64,000 nt of DNA, taken from Mesobacillus jeotgali (GTDB lineage Bacteria > Bacillota > Bacilli > Bacillales > Cytobacillaceae). The notes beneath the pieces were generated by a model. The model was not told the origin of the DNA. It saw only the letters and a program-made list of their open reading frames with translations, and did not search any database. Of this stretch, positions 13,296 to 33,247 are shown one piece after another. Numbering within the stretch: position 1 is the stretch's first letter; the number at the start of each line of letters is the position of its first letter. Made by a program: the position numbers and the translations under genes. Location: positions 3,280,001 to 3,344,000 of the forward strand of contig NZ_CP109811.1 of assembly GCF_014856545.2 (NCBI RefSeq). The letters are read 5' to 3'.

Positions 13296-14321
13296 TTATG
13301 TGAAATATTGAATCTCTGCTTCTGGAAAAAACGAATGAATATATCCTCGAATTGTTTCTTCAAGATCCTTCGCTTCATCCTTCTGGTAGACGTACTTACC
13401 AATACCGTAACGTCCCCACTTATACTTTCGCTTCTCTTCATCCATTTCAAGCTTGGATTTAGGATATCTTTTTTGGATCACATTTTTAGCCGGCTTTGTG
13501 AAACGGTGCTGGATGAGCTCAAAGCTAAGGCCTGTCAGGTCGATTCCTTCTAGGGAATGGCTGAGTCTCTCAAATAACTCATGATAACCCTCCCTCCATC
13601 CTTCATGGATATAGATTGGCGCAACAATGAAGCCAAGCGGGTATCCGGCGTTCGCCACCTTTCTTGCCGCCTCCAGTCTTTCATCAAAGGATGATGTCCC
13701 AGGTTCAAAGTTCTTGATCACATAGCGGGCATTGACGCTGAATCGAAATCTTGTTTTGCCGTTATGCTTTGCATCGAGCAGGTGATCGACATGATGGTAC
13801 TTTGTTACAAATCTTAATTGCCCATATTCCGACTCCCCGAAAAATTCGATTGTTTTCTTTAATGCATGGGTTAAATGGTCAATCCCAACAATATCCGAAG
13901 TACATGCGGCTTCAAATCTGGTGATTTCCGGTTTTCTTTCATCCATGTACTTTTGTGCCTGCTCGAAAATTTCATCGAGATTCACATAAGTGCGGATATA
14001 AGGTTTACTGCCAAGTGTGGTCTGCAGGTAACAATAATGGCAATGGCCCATGCAGCCAGTAGCAAGCGGAATCGCATATTCTGCGGACGGCTTCGAGGTA
14101 TCAAATTTCAAAGTTTTCCTGATACCGACAACGAGAGTTGATTTAGCATTCCGGTATTGCTGCAGTTCATTGTCGCCTGGGATGCCGCGCACCTGGTTAT
14201 GCGAGGTCGTTTCCCTGATCTCCAGCCCCATCTTTTCGAATTTCTCCTTTAGCTCCCGCCCAAGCGGGTATTCCAAAGCCCTTGGCTCAATATATACAAG
14301 CTGTGGTACAAAAGCTTTCAT
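13296..14321 (-). CDS. splB: spore photoproduct lyase
   Basis: A radical SAM enzyme that directly reverses the thymine dimer of UV-irradiated spores (spore photoproduct) during germination. The 341-residue protein has the cluster motif CMGHCHYCYL (Cys-x3-Cys-x2-Cys, the SPL variant of radical SAM). It also has the conserved AACTSDIVGIDHLTHAL segment with the hydrogen-donor cysteine, and YPLGRELKEKFEKMG at the N-terminus. The ATG at 14321 follows GAGGAAATG. No splA-like small gene lies upstream; nrdJ precedes it and ends in a terminator, so splB is its own unit, probably under a forespore sigma factor, although I could not define the promoter. Confidence 0.96.
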   Translation of the reverse strand: MKAFVPQLVYIEPRALEYPLGRELKEKFEKMGLEIRETTSHNQVRGIPGDNELQQYRNAKSTLVVGIRKTLKFDTSKPSAEYAIPLATGCMGHCHYCYLQTTLGSKPYIRTYVNLDEIFEQAQKYMDERKPEITRFEAACTSDIVGIDHLTHALKKTIEFFGESEYGQLRFVTKYHHVDHLLDAKHNGKTRFRFSVNARYVIKNFEPGTSSFDERLEAARKVANAGYPLGFIVAPIYIHEGWREGYHELFERLSHSLEGIDLTGLSFELIQHRFTKPAKNVIQKRYPKSKLEMDEEKRKYKWGRYGIGKYVYQKDEAKDLEETIRGYIHSFFPEAEIQYFT

Positions 14322-14420: not shown

Positions 14421-15023
14421 TTATAATCCACACTTTAGCTGTGCGTTACAGTTTGTGCATGTGTTGCAGCCGCCGATTTCTTTTACTTCACCTTTGCGGC
14501 AGACAGGGCATGTATTGCCGACTTCAGAGCCGATCGTTACGTTGGTAGAACGTAATTCATTAATCGTGTCGACAAGGACAACATGCTGTTTTTGCTTTTC
14601 TTTCTTGTCGATTTCCTCTTCCATCGTGTTTTCTTCCGCTTTGAGCGTCAATACTTGAGAATCGCGGGAGCCGTCTACATAAACTGTTCCGCCCTTCGCT
14701 CCGCCTTTATAAAGGCGCTCATATACCTTTTCAACCTGCTCTACGCTGTAGCCCTTCGGCGCGTTGACCGTCTTGCTGATCGAACTGTCAATCCAGCGCT
14801 GGATGACACATTGTACATCAGCATGAGCTTCAGGCGCCAATTCCATCGCTGAAACAAACCAATTCGGCAGGTTCTCAGGATCAGCATCCGGATTGCGGTC
14901 AAGATATTCCTGAACGATGTCCGCCTTCACTTCAATGAACTTGCCAAGACGGCCGCTGCGGAAATAGGAGAAGCTGAAGTAAGGCTCAAGTCCTGTTGAG
15001 ACGCCAACCATTGTACCAGTGCT
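14421..15023 (-). CDS. nrdJ: nrdJ exon 3: C-terminal part of B12-dependent ribonucleotide reductase
   Basis: This exon encodes the last 200 residues of NrdJ. It opens with STGTMVGVSTGLEPYFSFSY, the continuation of the exon 2 end (LLTVAPTG), completing the LLTVAPTGSTG phosphate-binding loop of ribonucleotide reductases. The C-terminus carries CPVCRKGEVKEIGGCNTCTNC, a four-cysteine zinc-type domain usual in class II enzymes of Bacillaceae. A GTG directly before the exon (15026) mimics a start codon but belongs to the intron. The exon begins immediately after the G that ends intron 2, in phase 0. Confidence 0.93.
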   Translation of the reverse strand, partial: STGTMVGVSTGLEPYFSFSYFRSGRLGKFIEVKADIVQEYLDRNPDADPENLPNWFVSAMELAPEAHADVQCVIQRWIDSSISKTVNAPKGYSVEQVEKVYERLYKGGAKGGTVYVDGSRDSQVLTLKAEENTMEEEIDKKEKQKQHVVLVDTINELRSTNVTIGSEVGNTCPVCRKGEVKEIGGCNTCTNCNAQLKCGL

Positions 15024-16175
15024 CACTTTTGTTACTCTCTATTCTAAAATAGAGGGCGGGATTATCAGTACCCGCTCCATATGTCGCCATATGGGTCAGA
15101 CTATATCATCAACCACATGATTTTTTGAGTGTCTCTTACGGTGACATGGATATTCACAAAGTGTAACCAAATTCGATAATTGGTTTGCTTGTTTTCAGTC
15201 CCCATTAAAATCGCGAAAAAGCCTTATATGATGAACAGAAAGCTCTTGACCGTATTGTTCCTCTGTAATACCACAATCTTGACAGGTATAATGATCTCGT
15301 TTTCTAGCTTTTCTTCGTTGACTTAACCAGTTCGGACCATAATAGTTTATTTCTCCACCCATCCAAGTTCCACTATTTTCACCTGCGAACATCTTACTCT
15401 CTGCATAAAACTGCCCCATACAATTTACCGAACAAAAATTAAAAGTAGTTATTTCCGAAGGTTTTTTCTCAATTCCTTGTCCACAATTAGCACAATTTGT
15501 TTTAACCCTTCGTCGATAATCTTTCTTACCTCTAATTCCATTCGCTTTACCTAAACAGCTTTTGGAACAATATTTAGCTGATATTTCTCTATTCTTGGGT
15601 ACAGTAAATGTTTTTTCACAGATTGGGCAGGTAAGAGTCACCTGTTTTTTTAAATGTTGGTTAATCTTATGTCCATTTTTTAATTGGAAAGTTGTTTTGC
15701 ACTCACGATCACAAAAAGTCCTTTTGTGTATTTCACTTGGTTTTCTGAGTAGCTCCTTCCCACAGTTAGAGCAGCAAACCCTTTTTTTACGTGAGAATTC
15801 TTTCCAAAACGCAGGTGGGTTTTTAAGTTGGTATTGGGTTTTACATGAACGAGAACAATATTTTTTTCGGTCAAAATGACTAGGCTTAACAATAATGTCG
15901 TTTCCGCAATTTAAACACTGCTTTATCATCTTGAGCACCCCCTCTTATTATATCACACAATAAGAACAGGTGTTCGATTGGTTGCTCGGCATGTAGTCGT
16001 TGAGGGGTCAGCCACGACTTCCCTGCGGATTGTCTGGTAGGTATTCATCCAACACTCCTGCATTTTTACCAGTTACATGGACTGGCTAAGTCCTGGTAGC
16101 AAGAGATACGCCAGAGTTTCCCGCATATAGCCAAGTTTACGCTACATTCTTACGAATATAGGGGGCAAGCAATTT
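15024..16175 (-). mobile_element. group I intron 2 in nrdJ (1152 nt), ORF in P8 region
   Basis: Minus-strand core elements in order: P (TATATGCGGGAAACTC, 16129-16114), Q (GACAATCCGCAGGGAAGTC, 16034-16016), R (CTCAACGACTACATG, 16004-15990) and S (GATGATATAGTCTGACCC, 15110-15093). R and S form P7 through GACTA/TAGTC. The exon ends in GGT and the intron ends in G, as group I splicing requires. Exon GGGT can pair with GCCC near the intron start as P1. The endonuclease ORF lies between R and S, in the P8 loop. Intron identity is clear from the core; exact splice sites follow from restoring the NrdJ frame. Confidence 0.92.
15096..15929 (-). pseudogene. intron 2 HNH homing endonuclease, interrupted by an in-frame TGA
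   Basis: The frame from ATG 15929 (GAGGGGG site upstream) encodes four repeated zinc-finger-like modules of the type CLNCGNDIIVKPS...YCSRSC, then an HNH region: YTCQDCG...LSVHHIRLFRDFNGD. A TGA at 15197-15195 stops translation there (244 residues). In the same frame beyond it, QANQLSNLVTLCEYPCH completes the expected Asn and His part of HNH, and the frame then closes at a TGA inside the S element (15098-15096). A TGG-to-TGA change is the simplest explanation. The shortened product lacks half the catalytic motif, so it is probably inactive. Confidence 0.82.
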
Positions 16176-17312
16176 ACCCGTTGGAGCAACAGTCAGCAAG
16201 TGCGAGTTACGAATCCCGTTTTCAAGGATCGATTCGCGAATATCTTCAGGCATTTTCTTCATGAAACCAGTGTTCGTGAATGCCTGGCGAAGTCTGTTTG
16301 TTTCTTTTTCTGAATCTGCTTTTAGGAATGGGAAGCTGCCTTTTTCCTTTCCAAGTTCAACAGATGCACGGTAAGCCGAAGTCGCAATTGTTTCAAATAC
16401 TTTATCAACAAGCTGGTTTCCTTCTTCAGAACCGTATTCTGTTTCACAGTAGATCAGAAGGTCGTGAAGTCCCATGACACCAAGACCAACACGGCGTTCA
16501 CCTAAAGCTTGTCTCTTATTATCTTCAAGGAAGTAAGGAGTCGCATCGATAACATTGTCTTGCATGCGCACCCCTACTTCTACAGTACGCTTCAATTTTT
16601 CAAAGTTAACTGTCTTTGTATCCTTGTCCGCCATTTCCGCAAGGTTCACGGCAGCGAGGTTACAGACAGAATTTGGTGCGAGAGGCTGTTCCCCACATGG
16701 GTTAGTAGCTACAACCTTCTGTCCATATGCCTGTGCGTTTGTCATGTCGTTGGCATTGTCGATGAAGAAGATGCCTGGTTCAGCTGAGTATGTCGCACAG
16801 ATATTGATCAGGTTCCATAATTCTTTCGCTTTAATTTTTCTATAGGTACGCACTTTGTATCCGAGCTTTTCCCACTCGCGAACGTCACCGATTTTATGCC
16901 ATTCTTCGTTATAAACCTTCATTGTCTCAGCATCATAGCTTTCAACATCAGGGAAGCGAAGGTCATAATCAGCATCGTTATCAACTGCGTCCATGAAATC
17001 CTTTGTCAGAGTGACTGAAATATTTGCGCCTGTAAGGAACTCTGAGTTGTGGACGGTATAAGTTCCTCCTGTTGCAAGCTTTTCTTCAGCTGCTTTGATA
17101 ATATCAGCGCTGAACCCACCGTAACCCGGGATGCTCTTGTAATTAACGATACCCTGGTACATAGCTTCTTCCTGCAAAGTCAGCGGTGTAAATTTCAGCT
17201 TTTCCTTCGCCATTTTCTTGATTGACTCATCGTTTGTGTTTTCAATCAGGAAGCGAAGGATCCTTGGGTTCTGCATTTTTGAAATGATGAATTCTACAAT
17301 GTCAGGATGCCA
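16176..17312 (-). CDS. nrdJ: nrdJ exon 2: catalytic core of B12-dependent ribonucleotide reductase
   Basis: This exon encodes 379 residues (274-652 of NrdJ). It begins WHPDIVEFIISKMQNPR, continuing the exon 1 end GAQMIMLAD, and ends LLTVAPTG. It contains the radical-site cysteine in ATNPCGEQPLAPNSVCNL and the second redox cysteine nearby, plus VEVGVRMQDNVIDATPYF and GERRVGLGVMGLHDLL, all hallmarks of the ten-stranded reductase barrel. Both ends are phase 0. Upstream in-frame codons from 17348 and the 13 codons after GGT are intron sequence, not protein. The 5' exon boundary follows the terminal G of intron 1. Confidence 0.94.
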
Positions 17313-18445
17313 CGTACATACCGTTCCTTTCGGAATATTTCGCTGCAATGCAGCCGGACTAGACTATATCATCACCCTCAGCATAATCTGTTAGGGGCCG
17401 GGCGCTTGTGAGAGTTTATTGTTGGGACTCACTCTCTAGTCGTTGAACCTTCGCCATTACCTTTGCCCAATGACGCTTGGCTGCAGATTGTCCAATGCAA
17501 GCAATTTTTAGGCCCTCACGCTCACCGTTTCCAGTCACGTTGTGGCTTGCCTGCCTCTAAGGAGTTCCCTGCAATTCACCCGATTTTCTAGCCGTTCATT
17601 TTCTGAACGACGCGGACTAGTGCATCTATAAAGTTACTTTCTTTACCATAAGTTTTTTCATGACAGTTTCTACAGAGTGTAATTCCATTGTTTAAAAGAA
17701 ATTGCTTTTCAGGGAAAAGCTTTTTGGGATAAATATGGTGAGCAGCAATATCTCTAGAGTTTGAGTTGCAACCAGGCATCTTACACCTAAAGTTATCACG
17801 AGTATATACTTTTTTACGCCATTCCTTATAGAGTGCAGAATCAGTTATATCAATTGTTTCCACTCTATTTTCTTTAAGGTAATTCTTATAACAGGTATAA
17901 GTACAAAACCTTTTACCTGAACGAGAATATCCTGAGCGCACCCTTTCAGTAGTTTTTCCACATTGAAAGCATTCAAAGTATACACGTTTCTTTATCCTAG
18001 TCGCCTTTATTTTCTCTAGGGAAACTGGAGTATGTTTTGTTCCTCTCCTTGGAGCACCTTTATCAATTTCATTATGGCCCCTAAGCTCCCATCCAAAGAA
18101 AAGAATCCGATCTAAAATTGTTGAATAACTTACCCCTAATTCATTAGCAAGTACAGTATATCCCTTTCTTTTAACAATGTATTCTTCATAAAGCCAATCA
18201 CGATTATCGTATATCTCATTGCCTAGTTTGATTGGTTTTTTCCTAATACCCAACCTTCTAAGCCTTGATTTGATTGTCGTACTTGGCAGCCCTGTTTCTT
18301 CAGCTATCTCTTTTAAGCTCATTTTGTCATGAATATACTTTTGATAAAGATATTCTCTGGTCAGATTCATGAAACGCCCTCCTATAAACGAACGTTTGTT
18401 CTCATGCTAATCTTACCAGTTATAACTTAGAATGTCATTTAGTTA
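17313..18445 (-). mobile_element. group I intron 1 in nrdJ (1133 nt), ORF in 5' region
   Basis: Minus-strand core elements: P (GAATTGCAGGGAACTCC, 17577-17561), Q (GGACAATCTGCAGCCAAGC, 17493-17475), R (GTTCAACGACTAG, 17448-17436) and S (GATGATATAGTCTAGTCC, 17373-17356). R and S pair as P7. Exon 1 ends in GAT and the intron ends in G. Exon bases GGCGGAT could pair with GTTCGTT at 18393-18387 to form P1 (three G-U pairs besides the splice-site wobble), which is tentative. The endonuclease gene lies upstream of P, unlike intron 2. An in-frame TAA directly follows exon 1, so unspliced RNA gives a truncated protein. Confidence 0.93.
17588..18370 (-). CDS. intron 1 HNH homing endonuclease
   Basis: A 260-residue intron-encoded protein expected to cut intronless nrdJ and drive intron homing. 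Two helix-turn-helix units lie at the N-terminus (about residues 4-40, MSLKEIAEETGLPSTTIKSR, and 55-92, YTVLANELGVSYSTILDRI), probably for DNA recognition. They are followed by a CFQCG...FCTYTC zinc finger and a complete HNH domain: FRCKMPGCN, AAHHIYPKK, NNGITLCRNCH. The ATG at 18370 has GGAGGG 7 nt upstream. The gene starts 75 nt inside the intron. Its AT-rich composition differs from the nrdJ exons. Confidence 0.9.
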   Translation of the reverse strand: MNLTREYLYQKYIHDKMSLKEIAEETGLPSTTIKSRLRRLGIRKKPIKLGNEIYDNRDWLYEEYIVKRKGYTVLANELGVSYSTILDRILFFGWELRGHNEIDKGAPRRGTKHTPVSLEKIKATRIKKRVYFECFQCGKTTERVRSGYSRSGKRFCTYTCYKNYLKENRVETIDITDSALYKEWRKKVYTRDNFRCKMPGCNSNSRDIAAHHIYPKKLFPEKQFLLNNGITLCRNCHEKTYGKESNFIDALVRVVQKMNG

Positions 18446-19264
18446 ATCCGCCAGCATAATCATTTGTGCACCACGTCTTGACCCGCCCTGCTCTACTAAA
18501 TGTGTCAGCTTGGCAATGTCATCAAGCCATGAGACCGATCCGGATGATTTTCCGTTTACACCTCTTGCCAGTGTGTTGCGCGGTCTTAGTGTCGAACCGT
18601 TCGTTCCAACCCCTCCGCCGCGGCTCATGATTTCCATGACCTGTTTGCGGTGCTCAGAAATCCCTTCGCGTGAATCTTTTACAAAAGGCATTACATAGCA
18701 GTTGAAGTAGGTAACGTCTGTTTCTGCGCCTGCTCCGTATAGGACACGGCCTGCCGGGATGAAGTTCATCGATACTAGCTCTTGGTAGAACTTCTCGAAC
18801 CACTCCTGGCGCTTTTCTTCGGTTTTTTCAACAGCTGCAAGCCCTGTTGCATTTCGTTTCGCGATTTGCTCGTAGAATACTTCCAGCGGCTTTTCAATTA
18901 CGTCCAGTGAACGTTTGATCACGCCGGTCGCAGCTTCTTCAGGATCATCAAGCACCCCGCGGAATTCCTCATCTACAAGCACTTTAGCTGTTTTGTTCTC
19001 CCAATCAATATCTAGTATGAATCCAAGTCCACGGGCAGGGAACTTTGGATCCTCTTTGATGGTGAGAACCACGAAATCACCATTTGATAGAGTAATTTTT
19101 TCAGTGTCTTTAAAAGTATAGCGGTCCAGCATGACTAATCGGGAGACGCCTTTGTGTGTTAGTTTCATGTCAGATGTAATCGGGTGAACCTGCGGGAACA
19201 GCTTAATATCTTTGTTCAGGCTTTCTACATCCAGGCTCATTTTTTGTCCAATAGTTACAGACAT
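18446..19264 (-). CDS. nrdJ: nrdJ exon 1: N-terminal part of B12-dependent ribonucleotide reductase (gene = join of three exons)
   Basis: NrdJ reduces ribonucleotides to deoxyribonucleotides with adenosylcobalamin as radical source. The complete gene is 19264-18446 + 17312-16176 + 15023-14421 on the minus strand: 273 + 379 + 200 = 852 residues, the usual size in Bacillaceae. Exon 1 starts MSVTIGQKMSLDVESLNKD (ATG 19264 after AAGGAG; an in-frame start at 19336 is rejected). It includes the NCYVMPF redox cysteine and the GGGVGTNGSTLRPR loop, and ends GSRRGAQMIMLAD. Two NrdR boxes lie about 110-160 nt upstream. No other ribonucleotide reductase gene is in the window. Confidence 0.94.
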
Positions 19265-19375: not shown

Positions 19376-19424
19376 AATCAATATATAGTGTATTTTAAAT
19401 TTTCGACAACACTATATATGGTGT
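19376..19424 (-). promoter_or_regulatory. paired NrdR boxes upstream of nrdJ
   Basis: Two 16-bp sites fit the NrdR consensus acaCwAtATaTwGtgt. Box 1 is ACACTATATATGGTGT (19409-19424, plus strand). Box 2 is ACACTATATATTGATT (minus strand, 19391-19376). Their centres are 33 bp apart, close to three helical turns, the usual arrangement for cooperative repression by NrdR. They lie in the otherwise gene-free stretch 19265-19620, which holds no other feature I can support except the lipM terminator. Confidence 0.82.
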
Positions 19425-25418: not shown

Positions 25419-25622
25419 AAAAAAGGACAGAGCACCCCCTCTGAATTCTGAGAAGGTCTCTGTCCTTTCACCTGAAAGTTTACCTGTAAAGGCTTTCCCC
25501 TTTGGTGGCTCCCACTAAAAAAGCGCTCTCCAGAGATGCGTCAAACAAGAGTTCTTTTGCCTGAGAGATTCACAAAGCCTGCTTGCTCCTTCGGCGCTAC
25601 TAAAGTAGTCTCTCCCCTTGTT
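25419..25622 (-). promoter_or_regulatory. tandem glycine riboswitch with terminator
   Basis: On the minus strand the first aptamer shows GGGGAGAGAC, GCGCCGAAGGAGCAA, ATCTCTCAGGCAAAAGAAC and CATCTCTGGAGAGCG. The second shows GCCACCAAAGGGGAAAG and AACTTTCAGGTGAAAGGAC. These are the conserved glycine aptamer blocks in their usual tandem order. The 3' end forms an intrinsic terminator (GGACAGAG / CTCTGTCC, then TTTTTT; 25468-25419) overlapping the second aptamer. Glycine binding is expected to prevent termination and turn on gcvT-gcvPA-gcvPB. Confidence 0.95.
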
Positions 25623-25801
25623 GTCATCCGCATTTATATTATTTTCACAATTGGGCATGCTAGACGTTATTACACATGTCTGCAAACTGACTATTTAAGA
25701 CTATAAAATGACAAATTTCAAAACATTCAAAAGCTAACTTCATCCTACCATTAGAGAGCTAATTTCGGCAATATATTTATACTTTAAAAGAGGTGGATAA
25801 A

Positions 25802-33175: not shown

Positions 33176-33247
33176 TGGGCTATAGCCAAGCGGTAAGGCA
33201 ACGGACTTTGACTCCGTCATGCGTTGGTTCGAATCCAGCTAGCCCAG
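33176..33247 (+). tRNA. tRNA-Gln (anticodon UUG)
   Basis: Acceptor stem TGGGCTA / TAGCCCA pairs over 7 bp with G as discriminator. D-loop AGCGGTAAGGC, anticodon arm CGGACTTTGACTCCG with anticodon TTG, and T arm TTGGTTCGAATCCAG are all present. No CCA is encoded. It is a lone tRNA gene, opposite in strand to its neighbours, between comGA and mgsR. Confidence 0.93.

Follow-up and report, generated by a model that had tools for sequence, protein, structure and literature searches.

Group I introns in a chromosomal class II ribonucleotide reductase gene of Mesobacillus jeotgali, and SOS-type boxes before their endonuclease genes

A homing endonuclease should be silent where its sites are filled, yet it has to be available when an empty allele appears. 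To our knowledge, hardly anything has been described of how introns in bacterial chromosomes regulate their homing endonucleases. The question is raised by nrdJ, the gene for the class II (B12-dependent) ribonucleotide reductase (RNR), on the minus strand (14421-19264) of a window of 64,000 nucleotides (nt) from Mesobacillus jeotgali (assembly GCF_014856545.2, contig NZ_CP109811.1, positions 3,280,001 to 3,344,000). This gene is interrupted by two inserts, and each of them holds an endonuclease gene with a LexA/SOS-type box in front of it. Judging from this and related genomes, we think it likely that the inserts are two splicing introns, that both endonuclease genes are under LexA control and that the second nuclease is by now dead. 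Control by LexA is the less certain half of this reading. What we propose is homing that would be induced by DNA damage.

The split nrdJ gene and its two introns

Three minus-strand exons, at 18446-19264 (codons 1-273), 16176-17312 (codons 274-652) and 14421-15023 (codons 653-852 and the stop), join to encode a class II NrdJ of 852 residues (273 + 379 + 200 codons). All three match one NCBIfam model, the B12-dependent RNR PRK08115, at consecutive model positions (2-273, 274-652 and 653-858). An earlier account made from the letters of the window, here called the sequence-only reading, had assembled the same single enzyme from three stretches and placed the start and end of the interrupted gene correctly. 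When cuts were scanned over 75 nt either way, only a single cut per insert combined the best joined protein with a U before the insert and a G at its end. The alleles of relatives, two without introns (loci L005 and L006), one with the second intron only (L003) and one with the first only (L004), lead to the same boundaries with a gap of 0. The scan and the empty sites thus agree with the exact boundaries that had been proposed, and the comparison with intronless relatives turned out as that reading expected. The nearest named relatives are records of Mesobacillus and Bacillus sp.

Our survey of the family covered 193 genomes, among them 183 with a full-length nrdJ. In 86 the gene is matched without a break, starting at residue 1 or 2 and ending at 852, and in 97, including that of the window, it has at least one insert; as to the remaining genomes, nrdJ is cut by a contig end in one (G079), and nine lack this gene type or have a fragment only. 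Sites are named below by the codon that precedes them.

Intron 1 (17313-18445, minus strand, 1133 nt, after codon 273) scores 73.4 bits against the Rfam group I family Intron_gpI (RF00028), above the gathering score of 50. Intron 2 (15024-16175, minus strand, 1152 nt, after codon 652) is matched in two pieces, its 5' half with 42.4 bits and its 3' half with 31.5 bits, the endonuclease gene separating the halves. Each piece stays below the gathering score, which weighs against the assignment of intron 2; the Rfam match foreseen by the sequence-only reading was therefore obtained in full for the first intron and below threshold for the second. These two are the only matches to RF00028 in the genome. 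The R/S pairing GACTA/TAGTC that had been noticed in the sequence is present in both introns; in intron 1 the 5' strand of P7 (R, GACTA) lies at 17437-17441 and its partner TAGTC at 17362-17366, on the minus strand.

Support for the fold comes from covariation. The alignment at site 273 (36 introns, all of the family set) contains 80 pairs in 15 helices with 98.9% of the cells paired, and 32 of the 80 pairs have changed on both sides. At site 652, where 20 short introns (19 distinct) were aligned, 98.5% of the cells of 84 pairs are paired and 29 pairs have changed on both sides. Such numbers of double changes were reached in 0 of 500 shuffles at either site, counts that should not be taken for probabilities, given the relatedness of the sequences and their partial use in deriving the structures. 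Sliding the alignment lowers pairing to 34-44% at site 273 and to 35-45% at site 652. Intron 1 of the window keeps all 80 consensus pairs, and intron 2 keeps 83 of 84. P7 itself adds no covariation, being invariant at site 273 and without changes on both sides at site 652; the P3-P9 core with its P7 pseudoknot is nevertheless supported by covariation in both introns. The U before the 5' splice site pairs with a guide G in P1, the last nucleotide is a G, and by eye a P10 seems possible between GAUGC before the guide and GCAUC of the exon. Together with the empty sites, these features make it nearly certain that both inserts are group I introns, as the sequence-only reading had held. We infer self-excision because structure and covariation support it: the introns would be transcribed together with nrdJ, and the ribozyme, consisting of the P3-P9 core, P1 and the terminal G, would excise itself and join the exons, so that full-length NrdJ can be made.

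It might be argued that the inserts no longer splice, that nrdJ is a broken gene in three fragments and that the cell lives on a class I reductase. The same genome does encode a complete and uninterrupted class I enzyme, an nrdE/nrdF pair whose alpha subunit (L105:4640-6862) matches PRK09209 with 1311.6 bits (cut-off 1057) and whose beta subunit (L105:6880-7917) scores 414 bits (cut-off 310); a class III NrdD, which was sought alongside, was not found. The endonuclease of intron 2 is already broken, which would also fit with decay of the locus. Against it stand the open frames of all exons, the ratio of nonsynonymous to synonymous changes (dN/dS) of nrdJ of 0.02-0.03 versus four relatives, with changes that are almost exclusively silent, and the ribozyme pairs that both introns have kept. 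A dead nrdJ is for these reasons extremely improbable. The class I pair bears on a further point. The supply of deoxyribonucleotides had been thought to depend on two self-splicing events; because nrdE/nrdF is uninterrupted in the same genome, it need not, and this part of the sequence-only reading has to be given up.

Endonuclease genes and the boxes that precede them

The gene in intron 1 (17588-18370, minus strand) encodes a putative homing endonuclease of 260 residues with helix-turn-helix (HTH) and HNH parts (PF01844 24.5 bits, cut-off 21.4, and HTH hits). In blastn the 21 short introns of site 273 (319-361 nt) align with intron 1 only from nt 816-820 onwards, one of them (L154) from nt 784. 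Since the short introns match the 3' part only, the gene is an insert within the P1 loop that separates the 5' splice site from the guide. The ribozyme part, which matches the endonuclease-less introns of this site, extends over 17313-17629 (minus strand), and its first 42 nt also encode the end of the endonuclease. The internal guide GTCCGC (17612-17617, minus strand) follows the 5' splice site at a distance of 828 nt and pairs with the exon end GCGGAT to form P1; its columns are invariant in 36 of 36 introns, and the last codons of the endonuclease gene overlap guide and P2. Versus L091, L092 and L095 the dN/dS of this gene is 0.12-0.15, a sign of purifying selection (L086, with its short open frame, was left out), and the nuclease looks functional from its sequence. 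The endonuclease-less site-273 intron of L093 (319 nt) shares 98.7% identity with the ribozyme part of intron 1, which points to a recent loss or gain of the endonuclease.

The second endonuclease gene sits in the loop of P8: short introns of site 652 match intron 2 up to nt 196-198 and again from nt 1049-1061, among the matches listed, about 13 of 20. The guide strand TTGCCC (16163-16168, minus strand), forming P1 with exon GGGT and AA, is invariant in 20 of 20 short introns, and its pairs are kept here. The gene (15195-15938, minus strand) encodes zinc-finger-like repeats and the start of an HNH motif, within which an in-frame stop (15195-15197) ends the frame. The rest of the motif is stranded at 15096-15194 (minus strand), a segment that overlaps ribozyme P8/P7; L090 and L098 have intact copies of the gene, and where the frame of relatives is intact, the end of the site-652 endonuclease extends into P8 and the P7 3' strand. 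The protein of intron 2 accordingly has no complete HNH domain. Its intact relative in L098 gives no PF01844 match either, and the HNH call was made by eye (HH..N..H) and from phage records named HNH endonuclease. The claim of an HNH gene in each intron can thus be kept for intron 1, and for intron 2 as regards the type, to judge by the motif, while the second gene is not intact.

The stop might be a sequencing error, in which case both endonucleases would be intact. The recA frame of this assembly is also interrupted: it lies in two frames (G000:C1:1846551-1847509, L246 and L247) that cover model positions 1-41 and 32-320, with one stop, and this is either a real frameshift or a base error, so it may point to errors at the level of single bases. 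Shorter frames are, on the other side, common at site 652 (L112, L136, L160, L163 and L173, with 221-232 residues instead of 280), so that decay or shortening seems to be usual here, and we find the sequencing error rather unlikely. In L136, L160, L163 and L173 a stop close to the N-terminus is followed by the long open stretch, which starts at a similar position. Six introns of intermediate size (L120, L179, L100, L124, L140 and L146; 495-907 nt) have short open frames only and are possibly stages of endonuclease decay.

A GAACN4GTTC box directly precedes each endonuclease gene of the window. In intron 1 it is GAACAAACGTTC at 18390-18401, and the surrounding 14-mer AGAACAAACGTTCG agrees in 13 of 14 positions with CGAACRNRYGTTYG, which we take to be the Bacillus LexA operator consensus. 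The box of intron 2, GAACACCTGTTC, lies at 15964-15975, and its 14-mer CGAACACCTGTTCT agrees in 12 of 14 positions on the gene strand and 13 of 14 on the other, so that both boxes reach 13 of 14 on the better strand. Both are found next to putative promoters. For the endonuclease gene of intron 1 a sigma-A-type promoter is predicted at 18410-18438 (minus strand; ATGACA-N17-TAAGAT, TG before the second hexamer, 9 of 12 in a consensus scan that found 2 such promoters in the stretch with 0.7 expected). For intron 2 a TATAAT after TGA (15947-15952, minus strand) just behind the box is the predicted promoter element.

This arrangement is conserved in the family. Among introns of endonuclease size, that is over 650 nt, the box is present in 14 of 15 at site 273, always at nt 43-47, and in 8 of 9 at site 652, at nt 201-206. 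In 13 of the 15 at site 273 a TGACA-like/TANNAT promoter precedes it by 7-9 nt, and at site 652 a TATAAT follows it after 5-11 nt in 7 of 8. None of the 41 short introns at these two sites has the box, nor has any of the 101 short introns at all sites. In favour of an operator there is also the count in the whole genome (4.84 Mb), 37 exact boxes versus 135 matches to the reversed control pattern.

The sequence of the box would also allow an RNA hairpin, a GAAC/GUUC stem closed by a loop of four bases, with an effect on how the endonuclease is translated or how the intron folds, and the four-pair stem can form at every box. The middle four bases vary, with nine versions at site 273 and four at site 652 among the 22 exact-box introns, with identical arms at the two sites; the scan required exact arms, however, and compensated arm changes could not show in it. 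The imperfect copy in L112 breaks the stem, and the box of intron 2 lies before the predicted start of transcription. We therefore regard a role as RNA as very unlikely. A second alternative accepts the introns as described and takes the boxes for operators of the endonucleases themselves, which would repress their own genes. Such autorepression would go well with the DNA-binding regions of both proteins, HTH in the first and zinc-finger-like repeats in the second, and with the position of the boxes next to promoters. The two proteins have unrelated DNA-binding parts, yet the box is the same, and it agrees with the boxes of recA, lexA/yneA (between the two genes), sbcD and a Y-family polymerase gene of this genome, which reach 12-13 of 14 positions (yneA and sbcD identified by NCBIfam, the polymerase by eye). 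We hold autorepression to be unlikely.

Several observations weigh against control by LexA. The two boxes are the only ones in the 64 kb, and as a count they are unremarkable (0.82 expected; 20 of 100 shuffles had at least 2). In the 19 stretches that were examined, covering 20 of the 35 other exact matches, the only recognisable repair genes were sbcD and the polymerase gene; since few of the examined boxes lie before repair genes and several have no fittingly placed gene, most exact matches in this genome are probably due to chance. The boxes of lexA and recA are themselves inexact here, with one mismatch in an arm. Nucleases at other sites do without the box (0 of 8 introns at site 263, 0 of 1 at 264 and 0 of 1 at 265), and at site 480 a single one of 15 long introns has it, inside the gene. 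Even at the two sites in question, the endonuclease-bearing intron of L131 (site 273) is devoid of box and promoter, and that of L112 (site 652) has only the imperfect copy. A scan for two hexamers gave no full promoter on the gene strand for the endonuclease gene of intron 2. Finally, the apparent frameshift of recA in the assembly makes SOS induction in this strain uncertain. The weight of the box evidence lies in place and conservation rather than in the count.

If LexA does control these genes, homing could proceed as follows. The two HNH-type endonuclease genes, which are unrelated to each other, would each be transcribed from a promoter region of their own with a LexA/SOS-type operator, which LexA would keep shut off as long as the cell is undisturbed. 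Upon DNA damage the nuclease would be made and would cleave nrdJ alleles without the intron on incoming DNA, and the recombination machinery, induced at the same time, would copy the intron into the cut allele. Ribosomes that translate exon 1 or 2 would presumably be kept off the ribozymes by stops early in the introns: the first in-frame intron codon is a stop in intron 1, as in 35 of 36 introns at site 273, and the thirteenth is the first stop in intron 2, as in 29 of 29 introns at site 652. Intron 2, its nuclease broken by the stop, would now only splice. The endonuclease I-TevI of the phage T4 td intron is likewise made from its own promoter inside the intron and is tightly repressed, there with a phage late promoter and autorepression; the intron endonucleases described here would instead use an SOS-type operator of the host. 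An SOS operator common to two unrelated endonucleases would, if true, be a concrete answer to the problem of being silent and yet available, in a gene that makes DNA precursors, which are in demand during repair.

An intron hot spot in the nrdJ genes of the family

In the family 95 of the 183 full-length nrdJ genes contain at least one group I intron, 150 in total: 50 genes have one, 36 have two, eight have three and one has four. Two introns in one nrdJ, which had been considered less usual, are ordinary in this setting, as 45 of the 183 genes carry two or more. The introns occupy seven sites in three conserved stretches of the gene, with 42 at site 480, 36 at 273, 29 at 652, 20 at 263, 17 at 265, five at 650 and one at 264. 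All but one of the 150 follow a U and end in G; in the exception, L118, the assigned 3' end is not a G. An alignment with the Thermotoga maritima NrdJ (1xje) places the sites within SRRGAQM or directly after it, in NPCG^E and in AP^TG^S. These we take to be specificity loop 2, the radical cysteine motif and the phosphate-binding motif.

Neighbouring sites can be occupied together. Introns at 263 and 273 coexist in thirteen genes and leave an exon of 30 nt between them, and in L031 (of the genome_contigs set) sites 265 and 273, 24 nt apart, are both filled. No two of sites 263, 264 and 265 are filled together in any of the 95 genomes, but as we estimate that chance would give about two such cases, this is no ground for claiming exclusion between them. 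Their nucleases are of other kinds, LAGLIDADG at 263 and 264 and DUF559-type at 265, and that of 480 has no Pfam match (two examples typed at 263 and one at each other site). Larger inserts of 2.6-2.7 kb occur alone in L180 and L181 and beside group I introns in L095 and L157; those of L095, L157 and L180 encode a group II reverse transcriptase/maturase (TIGR04416), and L181 is counted with these group II introns by its like insert only. They stand at further places of nrdJ, at about codons 461, 482 and 526. Inteins at the same sites had been considered on account of open frames of 1235-1278 residues beside partial matches, and are ruled out by the insert lengths, the U^...G ends and the in-frame stops. 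Outside the family, nrdJ looks split in at least 45 of the 249 genomes of the order with a match, as read from the match table; most breaks fall near the same residues, at a precision coarser than single bases, with exceptions in G366 (near 431-441) and G224 (extra breaks).

The introns group by site and yet are patchy in their distribution. A tree was built from 104 intron sequences of six sites, and along it the site changes five times, the minimum possible. The introns of sites 273, 652, 265 and 650 make up a single group per site (support 95-100), 263 is without support and 480 falls into two parts; 263, 265, 273 and 650 lie on one side of a branch with support 97, at which long branches meet. 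The presence of introns was compared with a tree of 148 distinct nrdJ genes from which the columns around the intron sites were removed (L095, L157, L159, L180, L181, duplicates, and incomplete or non-multiple-of-three rows were left out). Presence is nearly random on this tree at site 480 (34 changes versus a shuffled mean of 35.3; 30 of 100 shuffles as low), at 263 (18 versus 19.2; 22 of 100) and at 265 (18 versus 20.1; 5 of 100). It is somewhat clustered at 273 (28 versus 32.6; 1 of 100) and at 652 (19 versus 26.9; 0 of 100).

Support for mobility comes also from silent divergence, which is lower in the endonuclease genes than in nrdJ of the same genomes. For intron 1 the values are 0.165 versus 0.464 (L092) and 0.206 versus 0.305 (L091), and for intron 2 0.12 versus 0.45 (L098); the intron 1 endonuclease of L095 has 0.158, with no nrdJ value alongside. 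The exon hexamer before each site is constant among intron-bearing alleles and variable among empty ones, the pattern that guide pairing and co-conversion would lead one to expect. Across 177 loci, with some genomes counted twice, GCGGAT precedes site 273 in 52 of 52 bearing alleles versus 10 of 125 others, and ACGGGT precedes site 652 in 36 of 36 versus 6 of 141. The sole exception among all sites is TGTGGG at 480, in L157 with its group II insert.

With its seven sites and at least three kinds of nuclease, nrdJ of this family resembles an archipelago, and the 150 group I introns, with and without endonuclease and some only 30 nt apart, offer a natural laboratory. They also call for caution in annotation, as the 97 interrupted genes are probably called as fragments.

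Relation to known introns, and neighbouring elements

Reductase genes are known to harbour group I introns that carry genes for HNH or other homing endonucleases. Passages of two papers describe them close to conserved residues in nrdE of Bacillus species and of the phages SPbeta (Bacillus), Twort (Staphylococcus; two introns) and A9 (Brochothrix; three introns), and mention two cases of split nrdJ in phages (PMC3984707, PMC3653736). Those nrdE introns, as far as these passages go, are mostly from phages or class I genes, whereas here a chromosomal class II nrdJ has seven sites and up to four introns per gene. More than 100 group I introns in RNR genes had been curated in RNRdb by 2009, and Bacillaceae nrdJ introns may be among its entries; the passages of that paper at hand mention neither particular sites of nrdJ introns nor a hot spot or any regulation (PMC2795772). 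In the excerpt on Bastillevirinae phages several group I introns per gene and an overlap of ribozyme and nuclease gene are reported, much as here; the genes there are phage genes (polymerase, terminase, RNR and others), and LexA control is not mentioned in that excerpt (PMC11878797). Our search of the open-access literature found no description of an nrdJ intron hot spot or of SOS/LexA-controlled homing. We consider as new the SOS-type boxes before both endonuclease genes; these boxes, the clusters of sites in nrdJ and the placement of the first endonuclease gene in the P1 loop had escaped the sequence-only reading.

A phage source of the introns was looked for and discarded, as none turned up in the phage and viral collections searched. 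What relatives the endonuclease of intron 1 has there, 24 phage records and 39 viral contigs, share the HNH part or little more with it, and in no phage record does a single place hold 80% of the query; the protein of intron 2 had 16 matches among phage records, none of which reaches that measure, and a pattern scan of IMG/VR gave no relative of NrdJ exon 2. A protein search with the intron 1 endonuclease returned 65 proteins, and the named ones are from Bacillales.

Around nrdJ, two NrdR-box-like sites lie 5' of the gene (19376-19391 and 19409-19424) with 2 and 1 mismatches to what we take to be the NrdR-box consensus. The gene directly 3' of nrdJ (13296-14321) resembles, by eye, spore photoproduct lyase, another link to DNA repair. 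Farther away in the window are a glycine riboswitch (RF00504, 72.2 bits, 25539-25627, minus strand) and a tRNA gene (RF00005, 66.7 bits, 33176-33247).

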